64,000 bases of DNA from Lactiplantibacillus plajomi (lineage in GTDB: Bacteria > Bacillota > Bacilli > Lactobacillales > Lactobacillaceae): assembly GCF_005405405.1 (NCBI RefSeq), contig NZ_BJDZ01000009.1, positions 1 to 64,000 of the forward strand, read 5' to 3'. Made by a program: the position numbers and the translations under genes. The notes below the pieces were generated by a model, which was not told where the DNA came from, made no database searches, and worked only from the letters and a program-made list of their open reading frames with translations. Shown here piece by piece: positions 27,236-31,691 of the stretch; position 1 is the stretch's first letter; each line of letters starts with the position of its first letter.

Positions 27236-27403
27236 GTTTTCACCTCGTGGTCTATTATAGCGAGTTTGCGGGTGGTTGACTAGCTGGGAAAGCAGCGCGC
27301 TCGTTCTTAATAATTTAAAACCTGAATTAATGGTTAACAGTGGTCAACAGTGCTATATTGTGAATGAGTTTAATAATATCTGGAGAAAGGTCGCGTTTGG
27401 GAC

Positions 27404-30400
27404 ATGCAAAAGCGAAGGGTTAAGTTACGTACAATACCGGAGTCGTCTCATTTTTTGTACAATACAGGTAAAACACTGTTAATGTTAGGTTTAGGAAGTT
27501 CAATAGTTGTACTTGAACACCAGGTAGGAGCGGATGCTGCAGAAATAAAAACTGTGACTTCGGCATCACCGGCAATGGTAAGTCCAGCAAGTGCGGTTCA
27601 AACTGCTCGTTCTCAGGTGTTGAGAACGAGTCAAGGTTCGGTTGAGCCGTCGGTGGCACCAACAGTTGGGGCTGAAGCGCAGTCGGCTGATTCGGCATTG
27701 AGTGTCGAGAAAGCTAAAATGAACGCCAAGTCAACTGGCCAACTCAGCTCGCAACTGACTAAGGTGGCACAAAATTCGGCACAATCAGCAGCTCAACCGG
27801 CAACCGAGTCACAAGCGGCAATAATTGAACCGACCACTGCAAAAGCTAAGACTGCTAGTCCTCAGGCACAAACGAGTGCGGGGACCAAACCTGAAGCAAC
27901 GGTTGCGGAAAGTAGCGTAACCGGTACTTCAAAGGTTGCAATTGATCGACAGACAGTGCAAGTGCCAGAAAAACGAGTAGTGCCGGAACCACAGCCAAAT
28001 GTGGATTTAATTTACCATGGTTTGGTTGCCCAGTTTGATAAGCAAACTGGGCGGTTAACGTTGCACGGTGGTGAGCCAAAGCGGTCTGATACCACTGAGA
28101 TGCTAAGCGGGGCGGATTTTGACTTGAGCCAGGTACGTGATGTCGTGGTTGATGGTATGGTGAAGGTTGCGGATGATTATGGTCGGGGGTTGTTTGAAAA
28201 TCTAACGAACATGCGGACCTTGTCCGGTTTAGATAAGGTGGATGTACGGACCGCCGTTAACTTTGATGGGATGTTTAAAAATGACCAAGCCATCACCGAA
28301 CTTGATTTGAGTCACTGGGATATGCGCCAAGCACGTTCGGCCACGAGCATGTTTGAGAATACCCGGTCACTGCGTAAAATGACGTTTGCCTTCAAGAGTC
28401 CCGATTTACGTACCGTGGACCGTATGTTTTTTAACATGGATGCGGACGTTACGGTAGCGGATAGTGCGGTGACGGTTAAAAACTGGGATGCCTACGGGAT
28501 TCAAGCTTATGATCAACTTTTTAGAGGAGCTCACTTGCTAAGTGCGGATTTAGCAAACTTTGATTTTTCGGGGGGCACTAAGGCAACCGGGGTATTTCAG
28601 GACGTTTCACTTCAAAGGTTAGATTTGAGCAATAGTCGTTTGTCCCGGTAAGTCGCGTTAACGGACTGGTTAGCCGGAAGCCGGGTTCACGATTTACTGC
28701 TCAATGGGTGGACGGTTCAATCAGGGCAAAAAGCGGACCTATTATTTGATCAGACGGTTGTGGATCACTTGGAAATGAAAGACTGGTTGCTAAATTATCT
28801 AACAAGTGAGCAACTGACCAGCCTGGCGGAGCGGATAACTGCAAGCGTTGCGGCTGACAATCAATCGGGAAGTATTGATTTAAGTGGTTGGCAAATCACG
28901 CCCGAATCGTCGGTACCTCCCTTGTTCCAAAAGGTAAAAGTCCACCAGCTGATCCTCGATGGTTGGGGAACGAACGGCTTACAAAGCTTAGCCAATTGGT
29001 TTAGTGGCGCGCAAATCGATCAGTTAGCGATGAACGATTGGAACTTACCGACACAGGGGCTTACTAATTTATTCGAAGCAGCTACGATTGGTACGCTTAA
29101 TGCGCAACGCTGGTGGTTTAGTGCTAAGCCATATGAGGATGACGCGTTGACCGAGACGCACCAGTCGCTAAGCGGATTATTTCAAAACGCACAAATTAAA
29201 ACACCGTTGGATTTAAGTAGTTGGCGCACCGCGAACGTGGTCGATTTGAGTGAATTGTTCCAAAACTTTAAAGGTGCTCCAACGGTTAACCTAAATGGCT
29301 GGGACGTTACACACGTTCACGACTTTGACGCTGCCTTTAAAAGTGCAGATTTTCAGACGTTAGATTTATCGACTTGGGATTTCGCTGGTGCACAAAGTAC
29401 GCAGGAAATGCTACAGACGCCGGGATTAAACCAGTTTAGCGTGAACGAGTCGCTGCGATTTAAGGGTACTAATGACGAGGCTTCATACCTGAATACACCA
29501 CCAGTGACGATTGATTATCCGGGGTACTGGCAAAACCAAGCCACCGGTGCAATCTACACCGCGGCCCAACTCGCTAACTTGTACATGCATGATCAGGGAA
29601 TTAGCGCGACTTACCGATGGCTTTCGAACCAGACAGCACTTCAGGTGACGGACTTGACGTTGCACGTTGGTGCACACTATGATCCGCACCAATTAGTCAG
29701 CCAACTGGTTGGACCATTGGGTGACCCGTTGACCCCAACGCAAACGGGACTTGAGTTTGAGGGCGCGGTTGATTCACGCCAAGCGGGGCAGTATCCAGTC
29801 ACCGTTAGTTATCAAGACCGATATGGTAAACGGGTGACGGCAACCGCTACCGTCCGGGTCATTGCAAATGATAGTCAAGCTATTTTAGCGGGGCGGAATA
29901 TGACGGTGGTCGCCGGTCCCCGAGTCACCTTAGCACAAGTTGCAGATTTGTTAGATGCTCGTGATGATCAGGGCCGGGTGATTTCATTAACGGATGCTTT
30001 GGAGCAACAACGGCAATCCGTTGGCGCTTTGACCGTTAAATTAACTAATGAACTTGGTGAAACGTTGCCAACCCTTGATTTAGCTCATGCTGGGCATTAT
30101 TTCTTGGCTTTTAGTTACTTGACCAATAATTATGATTTGCTGACGCATACGAGTGAGTTAACGTTATTAGCGACCCGGGCAGCCGTCCATGTTGCTCCGG
30201 TTACCGTAATTCAGTACCACGTACCAACGGTTGACTGGCAAACGGGCGTTCAATTAGTTGACGCAAATGGTCAAACGGTTAACGAACCGTTGAAGGTACT
30301 TGCGGTCGACTGGTTGAACGGACCGGTTGATCCTAAACACGCCGGACGGTCCCAGTTGACGTTAACGTATACCGACCTTGCAGGTAACGTTGTGACGGGG

Positions 30401-31129
30401 CAAGCTTGGATGACGGTAGTGGCAAGCCAGGCCCAGCTAGCAGTTAAGGTACCCGCACCAATCGTAGTGGGAACGCTTAACAATTTCGACCCAACAACGG
30501 TTTTTGATTGGGCGGTCGACGAAGCCGGACAATTGATACCGGCCACACAAGTCCACTTTACCGATAACGTTGACCCCAATCGGGTCGGACAATATGCCGT
30601 GCGGGTACGCTATTCTGGGCCGTACGGGACCGAGTTGGCGCAGACGGTGTCGGTCCAGGTCGTTGCTGCGCCGGCCCCCGTTGATCCCAAACCGGGCAAC
30701 CCGGCGCCAGTCACGCCGGAACCGGTTAATCCCGAACCAGGTAACCCGGCGCCAGTCACGCCGGCCCCCGTTGATCCCGAGCCAGGCAACCCGGCGCCGG
30801 TCACGCCGGAACCGGTCAATCCTAAACCAGTCAAGCCTGTGCCAGATATGGCAAAGCCGATTGAACCGCAACCTAACTGTCCGCAGCTAGTTGTATCAAA
30901 GTCTAATAATCAAAAGCAGCAATCAGCGAGTCGACAAGCCGATTCTTGGCCAAACTTAGTCACTGAAGTTAAGGGTGTCGGTCAACCAGAACGGCCAGTG
31001 TCGACCGGTGATTCTCAGCGGCTTCCGCAAACGGGGGAACTAAGTTCAAAAGGCAAACCTGCTGGCGTAATTTTACTGGCGTTAATGAGTTTTCTTGTCC
31101 TAGTAACCGGCCGGCGACCGCGGAATTAA
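27404..31129 (+). pseudogene. LPQTG-anchored BspA-like surface protein, interrupted by one in-frame stop
   Basis: This is a single frame of about 1240 codons broken only by TAA at 28649-28651; the sequence on both sides continues in the same frame with no other stop. The order is: signal peptide (about residues 18-45), a Ser/Ala/Thr-rich stretch, DUF285/BspA-type repeats (such as MFKNDQAITELDLSHWDM and LFQNFKGAPTVNLNGWDV) on both sides of the stop, three or four Ig-like domains, a Pro-rich wall-spanning repeat, and the sortase signal LPQTGE (31022-31039) with hydrophobic helix and RRPRN tail. An intact protein would be a cell-wall adhesin candidate. The upstream part lacks the anchor and the downstream part lacks signal peptide and ribosome-binding site. 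Confidence 0.88.
30673..30845 (+). repeat. Pro-rich wall-spanning repeat in surface-protein pseudogene
   Basis: Tandem units of about 15 residues of the form GNPAPVTPEPVNPEP are repeated roughly three times, encoded by near-identical DNA. It is typical of the segment crossing the cell wall before an LPxTG anchor. Confidence 0.85.
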
Positions 31130-31130
31130 G

Positions 31131-31691
31131 TCACTTTTGAATGGTCTTGGATTCAATTAAGGATTGAAATCGGTCGTCATGGTTAAAGTGATAAGTGACG
31201 GTGTGACCGTTAATGGTTACAGTCCAATCCTGAAAAGTGACTTGTCCGGCTGTCACGGTGTACGGAATCCGCCGGTGGTTATTTGCAATGATCAGGTGAG
31301 TTGCTGTAATTTGATAGGTCGTGCCCCAGGCTTGGTTGGTCGCCATACTACCGGTTTCACGGATAGTACTGGCATCTTTGAAGTAAAGGTATTGACCGCC
31401 ATCGTGGACGGTATTAACGGGTGCCCGGCCGGCGTCCATAGCCTGTCCCACGTCTTCGCCATCGAACTTAACCGGAAAAATTGAGAAGCTTTTACCGATT
31501 AAATATTTTTGGATAGTTTGGCGGGTTGTACTGTTTGTCTGACTAGTCGAAGTCGAAGGTAACTTGGTATGTTGGTTGCTTTTGGTGCTTTGAGGTTTAA
31601 TGGGTGCTGATTTTGGTGAACTGGAACAGGCGGTCAGTGGCAGACTAACTAGGCTAATAATGATTACTATTAAAACGTGACGGGTGCGCAT
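31131..31691 (-). CDS. Putative lipoprotein
   Basis: This 186-residue secreted lipoprotein has an N-terminal signal (RTRHVLIVIIISLVSLPL) and lipobox LTAC with Cys at about residue 22. A Ser/Thr/Lys-rich linker (about 23-58) follows, then a C-terminal domain of about 125 residues (GKSFSIFPVKFDGEDVGQAM, GTTYQITATHLIIANNHRRI) with alternating strands. It resembles small Lactobacillus lipoproteins of unknown role. AGGAGG precedes the ATG. Its stop lies one base from the stop of the convergent surface-protein pseudogene, leaving no room for a separate intergenic terminator. Confidence 0.82.
   Translation of the reverse strand: MRTRHVLIVIIISLVSLPLTACSSSPKSAPIKPQSTKSNQHTKLPSTSTSQTNSTTRQTIQKYLIGKSFSIFPVKFDGEDVGQAMDAGRAPVNTVHDGGQYLYFKDASTIRETGSMATNQAWGTTYQITATHLIIANNHRRIPYTVTAGQVTFQDWTVTINGHTVTYHFNHDDRFQSLIESKTIQK

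Follow-up and report, generated by a model that had tools for sequence, protein, structure and literature searches.

We analysed a window of 64,000 nucleotides (the whole stretch of DNA presented here, from Lactiplantibacillus plajomi contig NZ_BJDZ01000009.1), in which the forward strand carries a long surface-protein gene interrupted by one stop codon. As seen in both the ORF list and the sequence, the frame that begins at the ATG at 27404 runs to 31126 as a single frame of 1,241 codons, and a TAA at 28649-28651, which is codon 416 and lies about one-third of the way into the gene, is the sole stop inside it. The TAA closes an upstream part of 415 codons and is followed directly by a downstream part (28652-31129) of 825 sense codons with its final stop at 31127-31129. 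The frame thus holds 3,720 bases of sense codons without a second stop; with the stop frequency of base shuffles, the chance of an open frame of 825 codons is about 1e-17. The features of the gene are collected in Table 1.

Table 1. Parts of the interrupted surface-protein gene, in window positions.
Feature	Position	Strand	Basis
Possible ribosome-binding site, purine-rich, weak	27382..27390	+	13 bases before ATG, by eye
Upstream part: N-terminal segment, Ala/Ser-rich linker, first DUF285 repeats, TAA	27404..28651	+	ORF list; DUF285 47.9 bits, best stretch residues 262-346
Signal-peptide-like N-terminus	27404..27538	+	By eye against N-termini of genus relatives; no family model matched
Stop-containing repeat, residues 401-446	28604..28741	+	Gapless match to residues 511-556
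Sister repeat, residues 511-556	28934..29071	+	Internal repeat comparison
DUF285 stretch past the stop	29165..29419	+	49.4 bits, residues 172-256 of downstream part
Bacterial Ig-like domain (Big_3), best of 2 stretches	29744..29860	+	42.5 bits for whole part
Pro-rich tandem repeat linker, 45-base spacing	30669..30890	+	Repeat analysis
Sorting signal: LPQTGE, hydrophobic stretch, basic tail	31022..31126	+	By eye; TIGR01167 12.5 bits, cut-off 15.9

From the N-terminus onward, the parts follow each other in the order hydrophobic segment, Ala/Ser-rich linker, DUF285 repeats flanking the stop, Ig-like domains, Pro-rich linker and LPQTGE. DUF285 (PF03382) scored above its curated cut-off of 25 bits on each side of the stop, and the PARCEL repeat model TIGR02167 remained below its cut-off of 30 bits (18.9 and 13.1 bits), so that we file the protein by DUF285 only. 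These observations bear out an earlier sequence-only reading of the window in its claims of one in-frame stop at this position, of a frame otherwise continuous from 27404 to LPQTGE, and of matching domains on both sides of the break. Two other claims of that reading stood in part. The sortase anchor is clear by eye from the LPQTGE motif, but TIGR01167 fell short of its cut-off and PF00746 gave no match; similarly, a hydrophobic N-terminus is visible by eye where the signal peptide was claimed, but the family models recognised none. The layout of this N-terminus resembles, in divergent form, that of genus relatives with what we take to be KxYKxGKxW-type N-termini. The genome contains one match to a sortase (81.2 bits, cut-off 26.6).

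We also modelled the repeat domain as a continuous stretch of 522 residues with the stop read through, using 7 sequences (mean pLDDT 75.9), and the model placed strands both before and after the stop position. The Foldseek matches listed were mostly leucine-rich-repeat proteins with TM-scores below 0.3, so that an LRR-like solenoid fold is only suggested; the model, in other words, suggests a repeat solenoid with weak LRR matches. A sequence search of the PDB gave no match. The codon usage index, at 0.63 for the upstream part and 0.68 for the downstream part, was a weak sign of coding: the wrong frames gave values of 0.58-0.61, and 12 genes sampled from the window gave 0.68-0.81.

Comparison with relatives indicated how the two sides of the stop belong together. 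When the protein was used as a BLASTP query with X at the stop, single alignments spanning the stop were obtained with the proteins at loci L003 (residues 126-1075) and L004 (residues 146-1075), which come from two other Lactiplantibacillus species (genomes G017 and G004, respectively). The whole open frames of these relatives are 1,324 and 1,316 codons (1,284 and 1,281 inside the fetched loci), and each is colinear with the window gene for more than 900 residues, with no stop at the corresponding place. Because these continuous frames align colinearly, both sides of the stop are, by the measure of the alignments, one gene. Among 22 relatives selected from fetched loci, all 22 matched and the best alignment spanned residue 416 in 12; the longest stop-to-stop frame was taken from each locus, so that openness is given by construction, and these counts show that both sides co-occur in one frame, not how often the gene is broken. 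Within the protein itself, the stop-containing repeat matched its sister repeat with an ungapped BLOSUM62 score of 50, compared with a mean of -40 (sd 15) for the rest of the protein. Since this match is gapless, the lesion is of the substitution type, a nonsense codon around which no codons have been lost or gained.

We then consider how far the gene is distributed. Across the genus, the downstream part found a match in 21 of 21 genomes (33% identity for the best-scoring one outside its own genome) and the upstream part in 20 of 21. In the family, 4 of 397 genomes, its own included, passed 1e-30 with a C-terminal query of 542 residues, the best-scoring other match having 35% identity; in the rows listed for this search, only three candidates per genome were scored. 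The 26 plasmid records that matched were each below 60% identity and held no closer orthologue, and none was found for the downstream protein in a wider search of genome contigs, from which its own genome was possibly excluded. In the aggregate, the genus, family and plasmid searches yielded no close orthologue. To locate the same chromosomal place elsewhere, we used a neighbouring gene that we read as dut. All 179 of its residues align with 77-89% identity to its counterparts at 14 loci (13 titled Lactiplantibacillus and one an uncultured Lactobacillus MAG), which places the window in Lactiplantibacillus. Neither half had a match at 1e-4 in any of 25 dut loci; of the 14 genus-like loci, 7 (L043, L046-L050 and L053) show the whole dut-to-tetR interval, and the other 7 do not. 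From this lack of matches, it looks to be an accessory gene that is restricted to its species and sits at a variable chromosomal place.

The surroundings provided three further observations. At about the same place downstream of dut, L. fabifermentans (L052:9052-13071) carries a 1,339-residue LPQTDE protein that matches neither half at 1e-4, and surface-protein genes may have a hotspot in the dut interval. The adjoining lipoprotein-like gene on the opposite strand of the window (31131-31691) likewise lacked a match at 1e-4 in every one of the 25 dut loci, and for that reason may have come with the surface-protein gene. With respect to numbers, DUF285 matched only 4 times in this genome, which puts it lowest among the 21 genus genomes searched; the others have 7 to 63 matches.

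In our interpretation, a nonsense codon has very probably, and recently, turned a Lactiplantibacillus gene for a sortase-anchored, species-restricted surface protein with DUF285/BspA-type repeats into a pseudogene: an in-frame stop stands at codon 416 of 1,241, and the G017 and G004 relatives are open across it. Translation would end at codon 416, and any product would consequently be an exported but unanchored fragment that breaks off partway through the repeat solenoid and is likely to be degraded or lost. The 825 codons beyond the stop, which appear to have no export signal, would give no useful product, and selection to keep the surface protein appears to be relaxed in this strain or species. 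With regard to age, about 154 new stops would be expected in the frame per substitution per site under neutral change in a uniform substitution model, so that, with no further stop seen, less than about 0.02 neutral substitutions per site would have built up since selection was released (95%, counting stops only and ignoring indels, with both halves assumed to be neutral since the event). The sequence-only reading had likewise called the break recent and had foreseen a truncated unanchored fragment or no product. Our interpretation agrees on the predicted product, and the date is upheld on a different footing, as the absence of a second stop is better ground for a recent break than the matching domains cited earlier. 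A clean frame past the stop would also fit continued use of the gene, through readthrough or through polymorphism among strains.

The second of these, in which most of the species would carry the gene intact and the isolate would have a nonsense mutation in it, perhaps by loss during laboratory passage, has a substantial chance of being right, somewhat short of even. It is nested within the pseudogene reading at a smaller scale, and the confidences we attach to the two overlap. A lesion that is single and clean speaks for it, as does the finding that two more surface genes of the same genome look broken by single frameshifts. This genome has 9 sortase-anchor matches above the PF00746 cut-off, which with the window gene and a gene on contig C10 makes at least 11; at least 3 of these 11 look broken, namely the window gene and one gene each on C10 and C14. 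The C10 gene (G000:C10, about 41.6-44.9 kb; L068:1640-4916, L130:640-3916), which combines LPQTDE with an N-terminus of the KxYKxGK type, is broken by a frameshift near 42.7 kb, and its two halves lie in a single frame in all 3 relatives examined. The flagged stops in G006:C75 and G020:C15, which had been candidates for further broken relatives of the C10 gene, precede the start codon, upstream of which the query extended, and both were set aside. The C14 gene (G000:C14, about 23.5-25.1 kb; L073, L129) looks, from its frames alone, to be shifted near 23.8 kb, in a Pro-rich linker: its upstream frame is long, and the 125 residues of its LPQTGE tail are encoded in a different frame.

An assembly or sequencing error at one base has in its favour that the genome, of 2.76 Mb, is a draft in 77 contigs, and we nevertheless hold it to be improbable: the lesion is of the substitution type and not an indel, and wherever a locus extends to the neighbouring dut, tetR and rplU genes, these align along all or almost all of their length.

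As to how the stop could have arisen, positions 28646-28661, which hold the TAA, match 29601-29616, read as its reverse complement, in 15 of their 16 bases, and all three bases of the TAA are among those that match. The inverted copy begins 955 bases downstream, and 939 bases separate the arms. When no more than one mismatch is allowed, the gene has a single inverted pair of 16 bases, and the stop lies in it; in 40 shuffles of codon order there were 0.175 such pairs on average, with at least one pair in 3 of the 40 and 0.07% of positions covered on average. The pair was noticed post hoc among many features and is a lead, not a result. That template switching from this imperfect inverted copy within the same gene produced the stop is a suggestion to which we give little credence. 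Local template switching is not usually expected over 939 bases. If true, such repeats could switch surface-protein genes off at raised rates.

Readthrough or recoding of the TAA, which would give a short secreted form together with a rare anchored long form, had been named as an alternative in the sequence-only reading and gained no support here; we consider it very unlikely. The downstream frame, intact for 825 codons, is in its favour. Against it, no anticodon for TAA, TAG or TGA was present in 59 Rfam tRNA matches read with ARAGORN, a list that is possibly incomplete, given that 150 of 169 candidates were scored and that a draft assembly can miss tRNA genes. TAA is also the ordinary stop here: it ends 28 of 46 window genes, with TGA ending 12 and TAG 6 (the 46 were obtained from 50 ORFs by removing both parts of this gene along with three antisense frames and adding L21). 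On the tRNA anticodons and the usage of TAA, we reject a change of genetic code or a suppressor tRNA. The 109 bases 3' of the stop showed no unusual RNA fold (z +1.04; 172 of 200 shuffles folded at least as well), and hence no sign of a stimulatory RNA structure, and the two closest relatives have no stop at that position. The usual marks of programmed readthrough, that is, a stop-reading tRNA, a stimulatory structure and a conserved stop position, were each looked for and not found, and the matches listed in a literature search for 'stop codon readthrough' held no mention of it.

Least credible is a reading as two genes, the first for a secreted repeat protein of 415 residues and the second for a protein starting downstream at GTG 28760: a mechanical ORF list holds both frames, but relatives carry one continuous frame, the stop sits within a repeat, and the downstream ORF has a sorting signal without a signal peptide or, by eye, a clear ribosome-binding site, the latter also disposing of internal restart. 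Scans for promoters and terminators were at chance level (7 against 5.6 and 7 against 6.9, respectively).

The pseudogene reading carries two warnings for annotation, namely that the gene should not be counted as a working adhesin in probiotic or colonisation contexts, and that the downstream GTG frame should not be annotated as a separate gene. More broadly, it adds a further example of lactic acid bacteria losing individual large surface proteins. Three broken relatives in other species were seen among the flagged-stop matches listed. The first, G004:C2 (L065:2212-6348), is a DUF285 surface protein with one in-frame TAA in its N-terminal linker, its signal segment in frame upstream and 1,279 open codons past the TAA; G015:C1 has several lesions; and G020:C96 has an in-frame TGA with no signal segment in view. 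No stop inside a DUF285 domain was seen among the matches listed, so that such breaks are a minority.

Proteins with DUF285, or BspA-family, repeats are also termed PARCEL repeat proteins in the available part of PMC2996958. The window gene resembles them in that DUF285 exceeds its cut-off on either side of the stop and that the model, with weak LRR matches, suggests a repeat solenoid, and differs from them in that TIGR02167 remains below its cut-off and this copy is interrupted by an in-frame stop. The LPxT-anchored proteins at L003 and L004, which combine DUF285 with Ig-like domains, share the colinear arrangement and an LPQT near the C-terminus, and differ from the window gene in that their frames are open and their identity to it is only about 26%. 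Published surveys, in the portions available, describe comparable losses. In L. salivarius UCC118, six of the ten sortase-dependent proteins are pseudogenes (PMC3619620), and L. ruminis ATCC 27782 has 85 pseudogenes when every kind is counted (PMC3231920). A third source gives nearly 400 secretome pseudogenes, most arising by frameshift, and 'many' among the large mucus-binding-protein genes of lactic acid bacteria, for which the authors left open whether the broken copies are true pseudogenes (PMC3017865). As in the sortase-substrate and mucus-binding pseudogenes that the excerpts of PMC3619620 and PMC3017865 describe, a large surface gene is broken here and its frame is still recognisable; unlike most of the secretome pseudogenes in the latter source, it is broken by a single nonsense codon and not by a frameshift. 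The inactivation is an ordinary and probably recent one, of a kind often seen in lactic acid bacteria.
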